From Deltaproteobacteria bacterium (lineage in GTDB: Bacteria > Desulfobacterota > Dissulfuribacteria > Dissulfuribacterales > DYLC01): DNA of 64,000 nt. Position 1 is the first letter of the stretch. Each line of letters begins with the position of its first letter. Of this stretch, positions 24,895 to 41,959 are shown in pieces. A program made the translations under genes and the position numbers. The stretch is taken from positions 485,081 through 549,080 of the forward strand of contig JAQVIJ010000001.1 in NCBI GenBank assembly GCA_028695735.1, written 5' to 3'. A model generated the notes under the pieces. That model saw only the letters and a program-made list of their open reading frames with translations. It had not been told where the DNA came from and did no database searches.

Positions 24895-24982
24895 AGCATT
24901 TTCCGCCCCTGTCTGCGTGCAACGCACAGGAAGGGACGGGCAACGCAGTTATGAGCGAGAGGGCAATTTTTCGAGCTTCCCT
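24895..24982. repeat. Copy of a MITE-like dispersed repeat (left end missing)
   Basis: This copy keeps the internal core 'GCAACGCAGTTATGAGCG' and the right terminus ATTTTTCGAGCTTCCCT (24966-24982) shared with the elements at 26618-26752 and 29810-29884. The matching left terminus is not found, so it looks truncated. It also contains a hairpin sequence (CCTGTCTGCGTGC, 24908-24920) that recurs at 57005-57031. It abuts the 3' end of parB. Confidence 0.6.
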
Positions 24983-25826
24983 AAAGGGATAAGGCTCTCA
25001 TCAATACGTCAAATTCCTCGGTGTTGCGATAATACAGCTCCAACCTTCCACCCCTTCCCTTATGCACAATGTTGACCTTGAGTCCCAACCTCTGAGACAG
25101 CTCATCAGCCAGGCGCTGAATGTCCGGGTCTGAAACCTTCCTGTTTTGCCGCCCGGTCTTTTTGTTGAGCCGCCTGGCCGCCTCCTCGGCTTGACGCACA
25201 GAAAGACCCTTTGACACAATCTGATTGCGCAAAAACTCCCTCTCGGCCTCGTTGTCCAGCATCAGCAGGGCGCGGGCGTGTCCTGTGTTGAGATTGCCGT
25301 CGATCAAGTCCTGTTGCATCGCAGGCTGAAGCTGAAGCAGACGCATGATATTGGTTATGGTGGAACGCTCCTTGCCCACACGGGTGGCCACATCCTCCTG
25401 TGTAAGGCCCAGTTCGTCTATCAGGCGTCTGTAGGCCATGGCCTCTTCAATAGGATTCAGATCTTCCCGCTGCACATTCTCTATGAGGGCCAATTCCATG
25501 GCCTCCGGCGGGCTGACATCCTTGACCACCACAGGCACCGCCTTTAGACCAGCGGCCTGGGCCGCCCTCCACCGCCTTTCACCTGCGATGAGCTCATAGC
25601 CATTTTCAATCTCTCTGACCACCAGGGGCTGCAATATGCCCTTTTCAGCTATGGATTGGGCCAGGCCTTGAAGGGTGACTGGATCGATATTTTTGCGGGG
25701 CTGCAATGGATTTGGGTGTATCTTCTCAATGGGACAGATAAAAAAGCCTGGGCGGCCTGTATCATAGGTATCTATATCGGGAAGCAGGGCGCCGAGGCCC
25801 TTTCCAAGCACATTCTTAGCTGTCAT
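24981..25826 (-). CDS. parB: Chromosome-partitioning protein ParB
   Basis: ParB (281 residues) binds parS sites near the origin, spreads as a CTP-dependent clamp and organises chromosome segregation with ParA. The N-terminal domain has the Box I/II motifs 'LQPLVVREIENGYELIAGER' and 'RRWRAAQAAG' (CTP-binding GERR), then 'ALIENVQREDLNPIEEA' and the helix-turn-helix 'LTQEDVATRVGKERSTITNI'. The C-terminal ~50 residues form the dimerisation domain. A perfect parS site is present at 37834 in this window. The gene overlaps parA by 11 bases. Confidence 0.96.
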   Translation of the reverse strand: MTAKNVLGKGLGALLPDIDTYDTGRPGFFICPIEKIHPNPLQPRKNIDPVTLQGLAQSIAEKGILQPLVVREIENGYELIAGERRWRAAQAAGLKAVPVVVKDVSPPEAMELALIENVQREDLNPIEEAMAYRRLIDELGLTQEDVATRVGKERSTITNIMRLLQLQPAMQQDLIDGNLNTGHARALLMLDNEAEREFLRNQIVSKGLSVRQAEEAARRLNKKTGRQNRKVSDPDIQRLADELSQRLGLKVNIVHKGRGGRLELYYRNTEEFDVLMRALSL

Positions 25827-26598
25827 GTTGCATCCTGTTCAGAAATTCCTGGGACAGGGCCGCATAGCCCTCTGCTCCCCTGGACTTTGGATCATATAGG
25901 AAGATAGGTTTACCATGACTGGGACTCTCGCTCAATCGAATATTGCGGGGAATAACCGTGTCATAGACCAACGATTTAAAATGATTCCGCACATCTGAAG
26001 CCACCTGAACCGAAAGACGCATTCTGTGATCCGCCATTGTCAAAAGGATGCCCTCTATATAGAGCCTTGGATTGAAGTTGTGTTTCACAAGCCGGATGGT
26101 CTTCAGGAGATGGCTAAGTCCTTCCAGGGCATAATACTCGCACTGCAGGGGAATCAGGACGGAATCCGCTGAAACCAGGGCATTTATGGTCATGAGACCA
26201 AGAGAGGGAGGGCAGTCGATGAGGATAAAGTCGTAATCCTGAAGGGCCGAGAACATGGTCTTCAAAACGAATTCCCTGTTGGTTTTTGCGGCCAGTTCCA
26301 TCTCCACCCCCACCAGGTCCGTAGTGGCTGGCAGCAGGTGCAGGTTTGGCACACCGGTAGTGCGCACGATGTCGCGAATATCCACCTTCCCGGCCACAGC
26401 GCAGTAGAGACAGGCCCCGGCCACAGCCGTTAGATCAAAACCCAAACCACTGGTGGCATTGGCCTGGGCGTCACAATCAGCCAGAAGCACGCGCTTACTC
26501 AGCATGGCAAGGCCCGCAGCCAGGTTTATGGCTGTGGTGGTCTTGCCGACCCCGCCCTTTTGATTGGCTATACAGATGATTCGAGTCTTATTGGCCAT
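25816..26598 (-). CDS. parA: Chromosome-partitioning ATPase ParA (Soj)
   Basis: ParA (260 residues) is the deviant Walker-A ATPase that moves ParB-bound origins over the nucleoid. It has 'IANQKGGVGKTTTAINLAAG' at the N-terminus, Walker A' 'FILIDCPPSLGLMT' and 'LIPLQCEYYALEGLSHLL', as in chromosomal Soj proteins. It lies directly upstream of parB (11-base overlap) on the minus strand and about 9-10 kb left of the proposed origin. That is consistent with a chromosomal, not plasmid, partition system. Confidence 0.96.
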   Translation of the reverse strand: MANKTRIICIANQKGGVGKTTTAINLAAGLAMLSKRVLLADCDAQANATSGLGFDLTAVAGACLYCAVAGKVDIRDIVRTTGVPNLHLLPATTDLVGVEMELAAKTNREFVLKTMFSALQDYDFILIDCPPSLGLMTINALVSADSVLIPLQCEYYALEGLSHLLKTIRLVKHNFNPRLYIEGILLTMADHRMRLSVQVASDVRNHFKSLVYDTVIPRNIRLSESPSHGKPIFLYDPKSRGAEGYAALSQEFLNRMQHDS

Positions 26599-29936: not shown

Positions 29937-30109
29937 CTAAATTTGTTCCGGCCGCCCGAATATCTCCTGATGCCATGCAATAAAAATAATGCGGTTAAAA
30001 TACAATCTCTGGATTTTTGCGGTTTGAACGATTATATTTCATTTGGTTCAATGCCGGATCGAAAACAATCCGTTCACAGCGCCACAATGAGCCCACAGAA
30101 GGAGCCCAC

Positions 30110-30406
30110 ATGGTAATAACATCAAAAACAAGGTCCCGAAAGGAAGGAACACGTTTTTTCAAATGCCCAAGACCTGTTCCAGCGGTCAACAACCGCATAA
30201 TCTGTCCCAGGTGCGGCAACGATCGCTATTTTCATGAAATAGCGGAAGACGTCACTATAACAACACAATATATACAGAATGCAGATGGAAGCTTTACTCC
30301 ACAAAGTGACGAATCCAATATAATGGGCGACATAAAACTGTTTTGTTCCAAATGCCAAACCGATTTGACAGAATTTCATACACAATTTGTGGAAATGCTT
30401 TTTTAA
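30110..30406 (+). CDS. Small zinc-ribbon protein, uncharacterised
   Basis: A 98-residue protein with two Cys pairs, 'ICPRCGND' (about 31-38) and 'LFCSKCQTD' (about 76-84), the pattern of a zinc ribbon, separated by a ~40-residue beta-rich insert (DVTITTQYIQNADGSFT). I start at 30110 because AAGGAG lies 5 bases upstream; the in-frame start at 30017 has no such site. The N-terminus is basic. It directly precedes an ATP-grasp gene (5 bases between the stop and the ATG at 30412) and is probably co-expressed. It may bind a nucleic acid or protein partner; no known family function is assigned. Confidence 0.7.
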   Translation: MVITSKTRSRKEGTRFFKCPRPVPAVNNRIICPRCGNDRYFHEIAEDVTITTQYIQNADGSFTPQSDESNIMGDIKLFCSKCQTDLTEFHTQFVEMLF

Positions 30407-30411
30407 TACAG

Positions 30412-31194
30412 ATGTACAATATAATCAGAACAAATGAGGAATTCAGGGCAAAATTTCATGAATTGAGTTCCTCAGACGTAATAATAGGTTGCCTGAACAT
30501 AAAACCTTCAGAAGAATATATTTTCACTGATTTATTATCAAGGGGGGTTGTTTTATTCCCATCGGCATTGTCACAACAACTGACCCGATCGAAATGCTTT
30601 CAAGCTGCTGTCTTCACAAAATACATGGTACACCTAACAACCGTAATAAGGGATAAAAACGATATACTTTCCGCAATAACAATTTATAATTCGCTGAAAA
30701 TAAACAAGGTTATAACAAAACAGGACAGGGCAAACTGCGGCCTTGGAATAAATCTATGGTCCTCAATAGAGGACATTTACAATAGTGTTTCCTTTGGACA
30801 TATTAAATTCCCATTTGTTTTACAACCCTTCATAGAAAATGTACTTGATGTCAGAATAATTATTCTGGGTAATTATTTAGAGGCATATTGGAGAAAAAAT
30901 GACAATAATATAAGAAACAATATTTCAAGAGGGGGGGACAGCGGAATATATGATTTGCCTGAAAATGCATTGATGTTATGCAAGGAAATAATGCAAAGAG
31001 GCCAATTCCCATACGCCCACATCGACTTAATGATCACACCCAGAAACGAGATTTTCTTTTCAGAAATAGCATTGAGAGGCGGCATAAAAGGGGCTCAAAT
31101 ATCTCCGGCCACTTACGTAAAACAAATCAAAAAACTTGAAGATTTATTCATTGCGTCCTGCAACGACATCTCTGCATCCACAAACAGAACATAA
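30412..31194 (+). CDS. ATP-grasp protein, RimK-like, substrate unknown
   Basis: A 260-residue protein with the C-terminal ATP-grasp layout: 'KVITKQDRANCGLGI' (phosphate-binding Lys region), 'FPFVLQPFIENVLDVRIIIL' (the D-x-R motif of RimK-type ligases), 'YWRKNDNNIRNNISRGGD' (the R..N-x-S-x-GG loop) and 'DLMITPRNEIFFSEIALRGG' (metal-binding region). RimK-type enzymes form amide bonds on proteins or peptides. No Shine-Dalgarno precedes the ATG at 30412, so coupling to the zinc-ribbon gene is likely; an in-frame start at 30343 is possible but overlaps that gene. The acceptor is unknown. AT-rich like its neighbours. Confidence 0.72.
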   Translation: MYNIIRTNEEFRAKFHELSSSDVIIGCLNIKPSEEYIFTDLLSRGVVLFPSALSQQLTRSKCFQAAVFTKYMVHLTTVIRDKNDILSAITIYNSLKINKVITKQDRANCGLGINLWSSIEDIYNSVSFGHIKFPFVLQPFIENVLDVRIIILGNYLEAYWRKNDNNIRNNISRGGDSGIYDLPENALMLCKEIMQRGQFPYAHIDLMITPRNEIFFSEIALRGGIKGAQISPATYVKQIKKLEDLFIASCNDISASTNRT

Positions 31195-31225
31195 ATTAAC
31201 AAAAGTTTCCCATAAAAGAAACAGA

Positions 31226-32284
31226 TTATATGTGTGGCTCTTCTATTTCATAAATTTTTGTTATACCAGACACAGAGGCATCTTCCGATCTTTCGGTTAC
31301 AATCAGGATCATTTTCCCGTTCAGCACACTAAAACCTGATATTTTGCCATTCATTTTTATCGATACTGGTTCAATGGCATAGCTGTCGCCATTCGAAAAC
31401 AATTTAAAGAGTGATATTTTATCAGATGGCTGCTGTTGTGATTCGTTGGTGGCAAGCCAAAACGATTTGTTATTTGTTTTTGGTGAATCCACAACTGCTA
31501 TTTTGATATTCAAAAAAGAGGCTGGATCGTTAATTGTAATCACTTTTTTCGACCAAATCAGTTTATTTGATTCATATACCTTCAGCATCCCTGATCTATC
31601 AAGAAATATCGTCTCTTTTATATCGTTATGATTTAAATCAACAAAAGCAAACAGATTCATTACAGCATCCATTGGAATAATGGCTTTTTCGTTGATAAAC
31701 ACCATACCATTGTCATCCGGCTTAACTATAAAAAAAACATTTCCAAACCTATTCCTGACATCAAACCTCTGGGCAATCAGGGTGCCATCATTAAGAAAGT
31801 TCAGCCACATATTTATGTTATCCTGAACCAATCGTAATGTATTGCCATCAAAACGTAAAAGACATGACTCAAGTCCAACATCATGAATCAGGATATTTAC
31901 AGCAACCCATCCGGTATCAGGGGATACAGAAAACGAAACAGGGGTTCCAAACCCTGAAAATCTGTAAAAAAACGGTTTTGCAGCCTGTTTATAAGGAGCG
32001 ACATAGACTCCTGATGGCAGCAGATAAACAATTTCATACAATCCGTCACCGTTTAAATCAACAACCGAGGCGGATATAATGTCATGATTTAACAACCCCA
32101 CAGGTTTTCCGGAATATTCAATTGACAAGCCACCCTGTTCCATGGGGCTTGAATCAATTCTGACAGGATTGCCGGAAACATTCTGATCTGTATCAGAGAA
32201 TACATAACTCACACAAAACAATTCCGATAAAATCAAAAAAAGTCCAATCTTAAATATGGTTATTTGATTTAATCTGCTGAACAT
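31226..32284 (-). CDS. Exported protein with FG-GAP/VCBS-like repeats
   Basis: A 352-residue product with a signal peptide (IFKIGLFLILSELFCVSYVF). It has calcium-binding-like 'VVDLNGDGLYEIVYL' and 'FVDLNHNDIKETIFLD' units, as in FG-GAP/VCBS beta-propeller repeats. The start at 32284 is preferred to 32305 because AGAGG lies 6 bases upstream; the longer form overlaps gyrB. It is a probable periplasmic or outer-membrane beta-propeller, role unknown. It is convergent with the ATP-grasp gene and lies 10 bases beyond the gyrB stop. Confidence 0.65.
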   Translation of the reverse strand: MFSRLNQITIFKIGLFLILSELFCVSYVFSDTDQNVSGNPVRIDSSPMEQGGLSIEYSGKPVGLLNHDIISASVVDLNGDGLYEIVYLLPSGVYVAPYKQAAKPFFYRFSGFGTPVSFSVSPDTGWVAVNILIHDVGLESCLLRFDGNTLRLVQDNINMWLNFLNDGTLIAQRFDVRNRFGNVFFIVKPDDNGMVFINEKAIIPMDAVMNLFAFVDLNHNDIKETIFLDRSGMLKVYESNKLIWSKKVITINDPASFLNIKIAVVDSPKTNNKSFWLATNESQQQPSDKISLFKLFSNGDSYAIEPVSIKMNGKISGFSVLNGKMILIVTERSEDASVSGITKIYEIEEPHI

Positions 32285-32294
32285 ATAACCTCTT

Positions 32295-34718
<2,424 letters not shown>

Positions 34719-35870
34719 TTATATTATAATTGGCATAAATATACTTAAAAAACCTTCGTCCTCTGAACCAGTTATTAAACATGGACTTTTTGAGTTGTTA
34801 ATTGTTAAATTAATATTTTTTGATCTCATTACAGATAATATATTCAATACAAACCTTCCATTGAAAACTATTTCTGTAAAATTAGCATTTTCTACATTTA
34901 CAGGTATTGTTTCTTTTGCTCTTCCTGTTTCATTTTGTAGTGTTTCAAGTTCAAGGATATCATTGTTTAGTTTTATTTTTATTGAATCATAAACATCATT
35001 CGTTAATATGGTTAATCTTTTTAGTGTGTTAATAAGTTTTAACCTATCTATTGTTATTGAATTGTTTTTATTTTCTGGAATTATAGCTCTATAAGGAGGA
35101 AATTTATCATCTATTAATCTAATTGTGATATTTTCATTTTCGCCTTCTGTCAATACAAAAAGAAATTTATCTTGTATTGCTATATTTATAGATTTACATC
35201 TATCAAGTATCTTTTTTAATTCACTTGCTCCTTTTTTAGGAATAATAATAGGTTTTTCTAATTCAAAATCAGAATCAATAATTTTATCTATTAAACTTAG
35301 TCTTAAACTGTCTGAACTTACCATTCTTATCTTTTTTAAATTATTTTCATTTATTACTTCAAAATTAATCCCTGTTAAGCCTATTTTAGTTTTTGCATCA
35401 TCAGATGCTATTGAAAATATAGTTTTATCTATCATTTCTTTTAATATAGATGATTCTATTGATAGAAATTTTTCGTTTGTATATTTTATAAATCTTGGAA
35501 ATTCATCAGCAGGAAGACCAGCTATTTCATATTCCATCTCTTCATTATCTGTTTCTGTATTATTTTCAGATTTTATTTTTATCCAGAAATTATCACTTTC
35601 TTCTATTCTTATATTTTCAAAAGGTAATTCTTTAGTTAATTCATATATCTTTTTAGGATCTAATAATATAGAACCTTCTTTTTTTATATCACAAGAAAGT
35701 TTTGTTTGATAACTTATCTCAAGATCTGTTGCCTCAATGATTAATTTAGCATCGTTTGTATATAAAAGTATATTTTTTAAAACAGACATGGTGGTTTTTT
35801 TATCTATAAAATTTTGTGCACAAGAAAGTGCTTCCAATAAATCGGTTCTTTTTACTATTAATTCAATCAT
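34719..35870 (-). CDS. dnaN: DNA polymerase III beta subunit (sliding clamp)
   Basis: DnaN (383 residues) is the ring-shaped clamp that tethers DNA polymerase to DNA. All three clamp domains can be followed: 'LSCAQNFIDKKTTMSVLKNI' and 'LLYTNDAKLIIEATDLEISY' in domain 1, 'GLPADEFPRF' and 'FSIASDDAKTKIGLTGINFE' leading into domain 2, and 'SEDEGFLSIFMPI' at the C-terminus. The gene is extremely AT-rich (a 60-base line at 35161 has 11 G/C) with heavy Ile, Asn, Lys and Ser use. An AGGAG site precedes the ATG. It begins the leftward dnaN-gyrB pair and diverges from the methyltransferase gene across the proposed origin. Confidence 0.95.
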   Translation of the reverse strand: MIELIVKRTDLLEALSCAQNFIDKKTTMSVLKNILLYTNDAKLIIEATDLEISYQTKLSCDIKKEGSILLDPKKIYELTKELPFENIRIEESDNFWIKIKSENNTETDNEEMEYEIAGLPADEFPRFIKYTNEKFLSIESSILKEMIDKTIFSIASDDAKTKIGLTGINFEVINENNLKKIRMVSSDSLRLSLIDKIIDSDFELEKPIIIPKKGASELKKILDRCKSINIAIQDKFLFVLTEGENENITIRLIDDKFPPYRAIIPENKNNSITIDRLKLINTLKRLTILTNDVYDSIKIKLNNDILELETLQNETGRAKETIPVNVENANFTEIVFNGRFVLNILSVMRSKNINLTINNSKSPCLITGSEDEGFLSIFMPIII

Positions 35871-36129
35871 TTTATATCTCCTATATTAGATAATAAAAAT
35901 AAACCCTGTTAATTTTGTTGAAAAACAAATAACCATTTGATTTTTAAACAAAAATACATCACATTTAATTGTATATTTCTGTTGTTTTTTGTTAAAATTA
36001 AAAAATCAAAGACATCAACAGTTCTAAACAATATCTTTTTGACATGAAATCAACAATACTATATAGTTGTTTTAAAGGTTCCTTTTTAGATAATTTTGTC
36101 CTTCAATGCCTTAAATATAACATAATTTC
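35871..36129. other. Candidate chromosomal replication origin (oriC) region
   Basis: This 259-bp gap between divergent dnaN and the MidA-like gene is very AT-rich, with long A and T runs that could act as an unwinding region. Two weak DnaA-box-like motifs occur, ACATCAACA (36012-36020) and AAATCAACA (36047-36055), each 7 of 9 to TTATCAACA; no strong box was seen. The main support is outside it: base skew changes sign about here, coding orientation diverges, dnaN and gyrB are adjacent, and parS and parAB are near. The exact edges are unknown, and the origin could extend into the AT-rich dnaN gene. Confidence 0.6.
36039..36067 (+). promoter_or_regulatory. Sigma70-type promoter for the midA-like operon
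   Basis: A perfect -35 TTGACA (36039-36044), a 17-base spacer and -10 TATAGT (36062-36067) point rightward, 62 bases before the ATG at 36130. One DnaA-like motif lies within the spacer, which would allow control by DnaA if the motif is real. Confidence 0.6.
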
Positions 36130-37257
36130 ATGAAAATATCAGCACTTAAAGAAAGAATAGTCGAAAAAATAAAAACAAAAGGTCCCATTGCCTTCCAGGA
36201 ATTCATGCGAATGTGCCTGTATGACAAGGACTTCGGCTATTATACAAAACCCGACAGAATCGGAATCAAGGGTGATTATATCACAAGCTCACACTGTTCC
36301 CCTTTATTTTCCAGATTGCTTGCCAATCAATTTATAGAATTTTGGGAGCTATTGGGAAAAGGGAATTTTTGTCTTGTGGAAATGGGGGCTGGGGCTGGTT
36401 TTTCCGCCAAAGACATTCTGAATTATATAAGGCCTCATCCTTTTTATGAAAAGATAAGATATGTCATCATCGAACAAAACGAGGCTGCAAAAGAGACTCA
36501 TAAGCGATTATTGTCTGATTTTTTGAACAAAATTACCTGGCTTGATTCATTGGAGGATTTGAATGAGTTCACTGGTTGTGTCTTTTCAAATGAGCTCTTG
36601 GACGCCTTTCCCGTGCATGTGATTCAAAAGGACTCTTCTCAATTCCATGAGATTTATGTGGATTTCAACGGCCGGGAATTGTGTGAAAAGACAGGGCCGC
36701 TCAGTTCTGTTGCCTTACAAGAATATGTCTTAAACCATGTTCCCTCTGATTTGCCCAATGGCTACAGAACCGAGGTGAATCTGGCTATTCAACCCTGGCT
36801 CTCAGCCATCGCAGCACGCATGATAAGCGGTTTTGTTTTGACGATAGATTATGGACATTCTGCCAATGAGTTCTTTGACTTAAGTAGAAACAGGGGGACA
36901 TTGATGTCTTATGTGTCCCACCGAACCTCCGAAGACCTCTTTGCCTGCCCAGGAGAACAGGATATAACCGCTCATGTAAATTTTTCTGATCTAAATCGAG
37001 TGGGTTTACAATTGGGGTTTTCTACCATAGGTTATGCCCAGCAGTGGGCATTTTTGGGCAGCCTGGACTTTGAAAAGACCTTAAAGGACACATACCCAAA
37101 TCTCACACCATTTTCTCCTGAGATGGCTGGTATAAAGATGTTGATCTTTCCACAGGGCATGGGAACAAGTCACAAGGTCATGGTTCAAGCGAAGGATGTA
37201 AAAATCAACGGGAAAATCAAGGGATTTTTGTTACAAAACAGAATGGATAGGCTATGA
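36130..37257 (+). CDS. SAM-dependent methyltransferase, MidA/NDUFAF7 family
   Basis: A 375-residue class I methyltransferase of COG1565. Family marks include 'FMRMCLYDKDFGYYTKPDRI' near the N-terminus, the SAM-binding 'LVEMGAGAGFSAKDIL', 'FSNELLDAFPVHVI', and the later 'FVLTIDYGHSANEFF'. The mitochondrial relative NDUFAF7 methylates an arginine of complex I subunit NDUFS2; the bacterial substrate is generally unassigned. It begins a rightward operon with the HAD and KptA-like genes and overlaps the next gene by 4 bases (ATGA). Confidence 0.88.
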   Translation: MKISALKERIVEKIKTKGPIAFQEFMRMCLYDKDFGYYTKPDRIGIKGDYITSSHCSPLFSRLLANQFIEFWELLGKGNFCLVEMGAGAGFSAKDILNYIRPHPFYEKIRYVIIEQNEAAKETHKRLLSDFLNKITWLDSLEDLNEFTGCVFSNELLDAFPVHVIQKDSSQFHEIYVDFNGRELCEKTGPLSSVALQEYVLNHVPSDLPNGYRTEVNLAIQPWLSAIAARMISGFVLTIDYGHSANEFFDLSRNRGTLMSYVSHRTSEDLFACPGEQDITAHVNFSDLNRVGLQLGFSTIGYAQQWAFLGSLDFEKTLKDTYPNLTPFSPEMAGIKMLIFPQGMGTSHKVMVQAKDVKINGKIKGFLLQNRMDRL

Positions 37258-37883
37258 GATATAAAGTGGCTGTTTTTGACTGTGACGGTGTCTTGATCAA
37301 CTCCGAGACATCCAATCTCTTCTACTACAATGAATTATTGAGGAGAATGGGGCGTTTTCCCTTGACTCAAGAGGAATTTGCCTTTGTGCATTCCCACACA
37401 GCAGAGGAGTCTGTGGTATATCTTTTTAGGGAGGAATTGGGCTTTTCCTCTGATCTCATAGACAAGGCCTTGATGGAGATGAAAAACATTCCATATGCCA
37501 ACTATCTGGATTTGTTGGAGTTGGAGCCAGGTGTGGTGGAGACATTACAACAGATTCGGCCACCCATAAAAACAGCTATTTTCACCAATCGCACCACTAC
37601 AATGCCCCGAATTACACAGCGATTTGGTTTTGATGCCCTTTTTGATTCCATTAAGACCGCATTGGATGTAAAAAGACCCAAACCAGACCCTTCTGGTCTG
37701 ATGGAATTGATGGAGTTTTTTGGTGTAACAGCAAGGGATGTGGTTTATGTGGGGGATTCCAGAGTGGATGAATTGGTTGCAAAGGCAGTGGGGGTTGACT
37801 TTTTTGCCTATAAAAACAAGGAATTAAAGGCAATGTTTCACGTGAAACATTTTAGTGAAATAGGGGGGTTGCTTTTGTGTTGA
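37254..37883 (+). CDS. HAD-superfamily phosphatase (phosphoglycolate phosphatase-like)
   Basis: A 209-residue HAD hydrolase. Motif I 'FDCDGVLINSET' (nucleophile Asp), motif II 'IFTNRTTT', motif III Lys in 'KRPKPDP', and motif IV 'VYVGDSRVDELVAKAVGV' are all present, with a helical cap between motifs I and II, as in Gph/PGP-type enzymes. The substrate is not certain. The C-terminal tail encodes MFHVKH from a perfect parS palindrome (37834-37849), so part of this tail may be kept for DNA function rather than protein function. It overlaps both neighbours by a few bases. Confidence 0.85.
   Translation: MRYKVAVFDCDGVLINSETSNLFYYNELLRRMGRFPLTQEEFAFVHSHTAEESVVYLFREELGFSSDLIDKALMEMKNIPYANYLDLLELEPGVVETLQQIRPPIKTAIFTNRTTTMPRITQRFGFDALFDSIKTALDVKRPKPDPSGLMELMEFFGVTARDVVYVGDSRVDELVAKAVGVDFFAYKNKELKAMFHVKHFSEIGGLLLC
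37832..37851. promoter_or_regulatory. parS partition site (ParB-binding palindrome)
   Basis: TGTTTCACGTGAAACA (37834-37849) is exactly the canonical bacterial parS 16-mer; it extends to a perfect 20-bp palindrome with AA/TT flanks. ParB of the same window (24981-25826) is its expected ligand. It lies inside the HAD phosphatase gene, about 1.8 kb right of the proposed origin. I saw no second exact copy in the window. Confidence 0.93.
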
Positions 37884-38626: not shown

Positions 38627-38732
38627 AATTAGGCGCTTCCATATTTTTGGGTTTTGTTTTAATGTTGTGCAGGCATTTACAGTTGCTATTGTTTTCTTGT
38701 ATTTTTATCTCTCTTTCTTGTTCTTATAATGC

Positions 38733-38808
<76 letters not shown>

Positions 38809-41398: not shown

Positions 41399-41959
41399 AT
41401 GATGAGGCCTGGGCTGAAGACCATTTTAGAGGCCATGCTGTTTGTGGCGGAAAGGCCCCTGACCCCCCAGGAATTACATGGCCTGCTTCCGGAGTTTTCC
41501 AAGGGGGAAATTAGGGATTCCCTGCGAATCTTACAGGCAGAGTACGAACAGAATGGCCGTGGTTGGGAGTTAAAGGAGGTAGGAGGTGCCTTTCGTCTGC
41601 AATCCAGGAGTGATTTAAAGGAATGGGTGTTGCGGTTAAAAGGGGTATGCGCCCAGAGATTGAGTCGAGGCGCCCTGGAGACACTGTCGATCATTGCATA
41701 TAAACAACCTGTTTCGCGGGCCGAAATAGAATACATTCGCGGTGTGGATGTAAGCGCCAACTTACGGGTTTTATTAGATAAGAAGTTTATAAAGATAGCA
41801 GGTAGAAAGGACACCCCTGGTCGTCCCCTGATCTATGGCACAACTAAGTATTTTTTGGAATTTTTTGGTTTGAGGGACATATCCGATCTTCCGGCCCTGA
41901 GCGAACTGGAGGATTCAGGGGCTTCCTCGCCGATTGTTTTGAATTATGTTGTAAATTGA
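41399..41959 (+). CDS. scpB: Segregation and condensation protein B
   Basis: ScpB (186 residues) is the winged-helix subunit of the SMC-ScpAB condensin that compacts newly replicated origins. It has 'ILEAMLFVAERPLTPQELHG', 'GGAFRLQSRSDLKEWV', 'LSRGALETLSIIAYKQPVSR' and 'IRGVDVSANLRVLLDKKFIK', all typical. Its partner scpA, often adjacent, is not in the window. Location close to parS and the proposed origin fits its role. It is 5 bases after the lipoprotein gene, the last gene of the iorAB group. Confidence 0.94.
   Translation: MMRPGLKTILEAMLFVAERPLTPQELHGLLPEFSKGEIRDSLRILQAEYEQNGRGWELKEVGGAFRLQSRSDLKEWVLRLKGVCAQRLSRGALETLSIIAYKQPVSRAEIEYIRGVDVSANLRVLLDKKFIKIAGRKDTPGRPLIYGTTKYFLEFFGLRDISDLPALSELEDSGASSPIVLNYVVN

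Follow-up and report, generated by a model that had tools for sequence, protein, structure and literature searches.

In the module of the basal unwinding system (BUS), a GC-rich spacer of 4 bp on average joins two DnaA boxes to at least three trios with a central A (PMC8287927), and Synechococcus elongatus possesses one skew-defined oriC adjoining dnaN (PMC7198777). We found no described replication origin for the order Dissulfuribacterales in the literature. Here we analyzed a window of 64 kb (the whole stretch of DNA, C2:485081-549080) from a draft genome of a sulfur-cycling member of this order (G000; 2.22 Mb in 9 contigs), in which an earlier note had proposed an origin in the gap between the divergent dnaN and midA genes. 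The gap resembles BUS origins of the Bacillus subtilis type (PMC8287927) in bearing tandem boxes, a short GC-rich spacer and DnaA-trios just upstream of dnaN, but differs in that dnaA is not adjacent, the core of the boxes is YAACA instead of NCACA, and the module here is a predicted one. As in S. elongatus, there is one skew-defined origin candidate next to dnaN, albeit in another phylum and with other neighbours, namely the midA-HAD pair diverging from dnaN-gyrB, and the box in the window differs from the cyanobacterial TTTTCCACA (PMC10225481). The proposed position agrees with the sampled skew, with a closed relative, with conserved synteny and a conserved box/trio module, and with a parS that is unique in the genome and has parAB nearby, and we regard the gap at 35,871-36,129 as oriC, in which replication would initiate, with a probability of about 0.93. 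What was read directly from the DNA is the skew switch, the lack of a second one in the sampled genome, the conserved synteny and box/trio block, and parS.

The gap and its immediate neighbours are as follows, the family matches agreeing with the earlier naming of dnaN, gyrB and the divergent midA.

32,295-34,700, minus strand: gyrB (TIGR01059, 4e-293)
34,719-35,870, minus strand: dnaN, sliding clamp (TIGR00663, 1.4e-69; GC3 0.11)
35,871-36,129, no strand: candidate oriC, the dnaN-midA divergent intergenic region (259 bp, 21% GC; skew switch, synteny)
36,130-37,257, plus strand: midA-like methyltransferase (Methyltransf_28; PF02636, 4.7e-63)
37,254-37,883, plus strand: HAD-family hydrolase, with parS near its 3' end (PF13419, 1e-26)

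The arrangement in which HAD-midA and dnaN-gyrB diverge from the gap was kept in every relative with a contig spanning the site, the exception being G011, in which a midA match was absent between HAD and dnaN. Other Desulfobacterota, Binatia and Bdellovibrio share the dnaN-gyrB order and an origin-type gap just upstream of dnaN. In 36 of the loci fetched from those lineages, however, dnaA is positioned directly upstream of dnaN, while in the window the divergent midA-HAD pair replaces it and dnaA is far away. With dnaA at that position in the outgroups, it is simplest to suppose that the origin remained beside dnaN and dnaA moved away. The AT-rich genes located left of gyrB (30,017-32,305), which encode a RimK-like ATP-grasp protein and a protein of 359 aa with no significant family match, were not seen beside gyrB in the relatives.

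The earlier note had rested its proposal on hand-counted bases, and all eight of its 60-base lines proved exact or one base out on recount. Its rule of more C than G on the left and more G than C on the right held for the 60-base plus-strand lines on either side of the gap (364 vs 198 lines on the left; 261 with G>C vs 177 with C>G on the right). The cumulative GC-skew minimum of the 64-kb window fell at 36,328, near the dnaN/midA divergence as had been claimed and ~200 bp right of the gap. When the sequence was shuffled 10,000 times in blocks of 600 bp, no shuffle matched the detrended depth of -937, and the deepest reached -611. The skew had also been said to hold whatever the gene strand, and the third-position plus-strand skew indeed had the same sign for plus and minus genes on each side (-0.145 and -0.115, respectively, left of the gap; +0.082 and +0.069, respectively, right of it). 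Since the third-position skew flips for genes on both strands, the switch follows the direction of replication, not that of transcription. The right-hand skew was near zero from 52 kb on inside the window and positive again past the window end.

A position of the minimum 200 bp right of the gap could be taken to mean that replication starts in the neighbourhood but outside the gap, for instance within midA or, as parAB are commonly near origins, close to the parAB genes 10 kb to the left. We consider this very unlikely; skew minima are accurate to ~1 kilobase only, the sign changes from the bin of 34-36 kb to that of 36-38 kb, and it is the gap that holds the conserved boxes and AT-rich intergenic DNA.

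The genome-wide skew was computed on sampled stretches amounting to ~38% of the 2.22 Mb, the window counted, and this check for a minimum elsewhere found the sole lasting minus-to-plus switch of the sampled ~38% in the window. All sampled stretches of C2 left of the window had negative skew and all of those right of it positive skew, the sign being kept for ~500 kb leftward and ~190 kb rightward. The other contigs had positive skew, with a few sampled stretches near zero or slightly negative. In the sampled part of this draft genome, the candidate thus coincides with the global GC-skew minimum, and a closed relative agrees: in G006 (taken as Dissulfurimicrobium hydrothermale Sh68, order Dissulfuribacterales; a single contig of 2,025,450 bp), the skew turns from negative to positive around dnaN (439-440 kb) and back to negative near 1.47 Mb, antipodal to dnaN. 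No skew maximum, or terminus, was located in the sampled ~38% of the 9-contig draft, and a contig break may coincide with it. None of the sampled contigs other than C2 had a lasting negative-skew stretch; either the contig orientations are non-random or the replichores seem highly unequal.

The gap has the composition of an AT-rich unwinding element (21% GC vs ~51% for the genome), and the orthologous gap has a GC content of 35% or less in 18 of 19 relatives. A trough of GC3, for which the cause may be mutational, selective or recombinational, is centred on dnaN, the GC3 of which is 0.11 in the window, 0.12 in D. hydrothermale and 0.15 in G008, against medians of 0.60-0.66 for the surrounding genes; troughs of 0.11-0.15 thus occur in genomes of ~50% GC, and the trough is absent in the GC-rich genome of G004. 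Compared with every other gene within 10 kb, dnaN had the lowest GC3 in 14 of 20 Dissulfuribacterales genomes vs 10 of 21 outgroup loci, with a median drop of 0.18 vs 0.07. No literature on origin-proximal AT enrichment was found, most subscription journals being outside the reach of the search. The AT-rich stretch at 29.6-36.2 kb might be regarded as a recent foreign insert that distorts the composition and yields the skew switch as a by-product, as GC falls from 52% to 23% and other low-GC stretches exist elsewhere in the genome. Nevertheless, an insert does not account for a skew sign persisting over the sampled C2 distances given above, dnaN and gyrB lie in conserved synteny and are AT-rich in most relatives too, and the account of the skew is contradicted by D. 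hydrothermale, in which the skew minimum likewise falls at the dnaN-midA pair. We therefore find an insert barely credible.

The features predicted within the gap are listed below.

35,885-35,952, minus strand: conserved block (nhmmer E 3.9e-6)
35,916-35,924, minus strand: predicted DnaA box 1, TTTTCAACA (motif TTWTYAACA)
35,907-35,915, minus strand: predicted DnaA box 2, AAATTAACA, abutting box 1 head-to-tail at zero gap
35,903-35,906, minus strand: GC-rich spacer GGGT between boxes and trios, 4 bp, as the published average (PMC8287927)
35,891-35,902, minus strand: DnaA-trio-like repeat TTA TTT TTA TTA, predicted unwinding start (plus strand 3'-AAT AAA AAT AAT-5')
36,011-36,061, plus strand: two degenerate direct repeats with an ATCAACA core at 36,011-36,026 and 36,046-36,061, 35 nt apart (repeat search)
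36,039-36,067, plus strand: midA promoter-like site TTGACA-17-TATAGT (11/12 consensus match; weak evidence)

The earlier note had mentioned two weak DnaA-like motifs; DnaA-like sites are present, but "weak" understated a tandem pair at 35,907-35,924, which constitutes a cluster of DnaA boxes as in an oriC. Toward dnaN on the minus strand, box 1, box 2, GGGT and the trios follow one another and then give way to the dnaN leader. Under the published rules for BUS (PMC8287927: boxes with up to 2 mismatches, a spacer of 0-16 bp, and at least three trios with a central A), the stretch at 35,924-35,891 qualifies by sequence as an unwinding module. The spacing of the two boxes recurs in many relatives, e.g., TTTTTAACA AAATTAACA in G022, and the tandem-box pattern, which drew partly on the window sequence besides the relatives, occurred once in the 2.22-Mb genome with 1 mismatch allowed. 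An nhmmer profile built from the relatives minus the window's own family had its sole significant match in the window at 35,952-35,885, the next match having an E of 4.2. The box-box-spacer-trio layout was found toward dnaN in 14 of 29 gaps and on the opposite strand in 1 of 29, and shuffles gave a mean of 0.98 and a maximum of 5 of 29 gaps. In family f9, as in some others, the module is weak, and the half of the gap nearer midA is poorly conserved. The ATCAACA repeats in that half each have 2 mismatches from TTWTYAACA and are possible weak DnaA sites.

The boxes depart from the canonical TTWTNCACA in lacking C at position 6. In 29 origin gaps of Dissulfuribacterales, TTWTYAACA was observed 39 times vs 3.4 expected (~11-fold), and upstream of 30 dnaA genes 41 times vs 2.2 expected; the corresponding figures for TTWTNCACA were 6 vs 1.6 and 6 vs 2.2, and there was no exact TTATCCACA box in the 29 origin gaps. 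Thus, the predicted DnaA box of Dissulfuribacterales is TTWTYAACA, not TTWTNCACA. It would be a clade-specific box, and origin finders set to TTATCCACA would score such origins poorly. A search of the literature, beyond the reach of which most subscription journals lay, did not find TTTTCAACA described as a "DnaA box". The presence of TTWTYAACA upstream of dnaA, where autoregulation is expected, and a promoter-like match overlapping the boxes would also suit sites that serve as operators for the control of dnaN by DnaA, with replication starting without them. This is highly improbable in our view, as the skew switch and parS independently place the origin here, and boxes, spacer and trios together form an unwinding layout that an operator does not need.

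The absence of dnaA and recF from the cluster, reported earlier, was confirmed on both counts. The dnaA gene was found on another contig (C8:314763) in a positive-skew region with no skew switch, and dnaA is unlinked from dnaN in Dissulfuribacterales. The candidate is therefore not adjacent to dnaA, an association that is common but not universal, and the S. elongatus precedent indicates that such adjacency is not a defining requirement of oriC. For recF, no match above the family cut-off was detected anywhere in the genome, and the gene may have been lost rather than moved. The present results assign an origin to Dissulfuribacterales and remove dnaA as an origin marker there.

All 31 DnaA sequences examined for the order carry (F/L)-x-(R/K)-DHATV (FGRDHATV in the window's genome), whereas dnaN-linked DnaA typically has FGG(K/R)DH(S/T)TV; the turn before the recognition helix is one residue shorter in the former. 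The order's DnaA has Ala where residue 435 stands in E. coli, a position for which a role in box preference had already been suspected (PMC5043019). A tree of 59 DnaA proteins placed the order inside a clade of 32 (support 100/99), with every dnaN-linked DnaA in the tree falling outside it. Dissulfuribacterales mostly carry the divergent DnaA only, and both types are present in four other Desulfobacterota (G052, G076, G109, and G117). The two types in some Desulfobacterota, together with the divergent clade, make it plausible that the usual dnaN-linked DnaA was lost in Dissulfuribacterales and a second, divergent DnaA took over, with the origin staying beside dnaN and being re-tuned to match as the boxes drifted from YCACA to YAACA. 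We put this forward tentatively, at slightly less than even odds, and duplication, transfer or simple divergence could plausibly explain the divergent DnaA as well. If such a swap of initiators is true, Desulfobacterota, some with both DnaA types, offer a natural system for the co-change of origin and initiator.

Two broader generalizations were not borne out. Across the phylum, the short turn does not strictly go together with the YAACA box, as short-turn lineages outside the order have mixed boxes, TTATCCACA included, and Bdellovibrio, despite its canonical DnaA, has TTTTCAACA upstream of dnaA. An origin at dnaN in all lineages possessing the divergent DnaA alone was not supported either, as dnaN of G126 lies inside a negative-skew stretch; in G051 and G074, the skew was too weak to place the origin relative to dnaN. 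G074, a closed relative from another order, possesses two dnaN-like genes (C1:921987 and 1526598). Besides the usual set, G002 has a second dnaA beside a second dnaN (C81:2991-5308), representing either contamination or a second such locus.

Genes and a site for origin segregation were also identified in the window.

24,981-25,826, minus strand: parB (TIGR00180, 1.3e-52; the sole ParB_N match in the genome)
25,816-26,598, minus strand: parA (ParA-type ATPase matches; overlaps the parB start)
37,834-37,849, no strand: parS, TGTTTCACGTGAAACA, a perfect classic site inside the HAD gene, 1.9 kb from the candidate origin
41,399-41,959, plus strand: scpB, origin-proximal SMC-complex subunit (TIGR00281, 1e-37)

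The parS site TGTTTCACGTGAAACA is the sole copy in the genome with up to 2 mismatches allowed, and in 14 genomes of the order, the window's genome included, dnaN has a parS no more than 3 kb away, at ~2 kb. With parS close to the candidate oriC and parAB 10 kb left of the gap, the region has the makeup of a ParABS-type origin domain. As for the mechanism, DnaA binding, unwinding and firing would all take place at the gap: DnaA made from its distant locus would bind the tandem boxes at 35,924-35,907, then assemble on the trio strand at 35,902-35,891, open the AT-rich DNA toward dnaN and load the helicase. Two forks would then depart in opposite directions, and parS, ParAB and SMC-ScpB would carry the new origins apart. 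The candidate is ordinary as an origin and becomes a variant through its DnaA, which is divergent, unlinked and has a box of its own. Right of the HAD gene, a tRNA-Arg(CCG) at 38,729-38,808 overlaps the called start of the indolepyruvate oxidoreductase ORF, the true start of which is probably further right.
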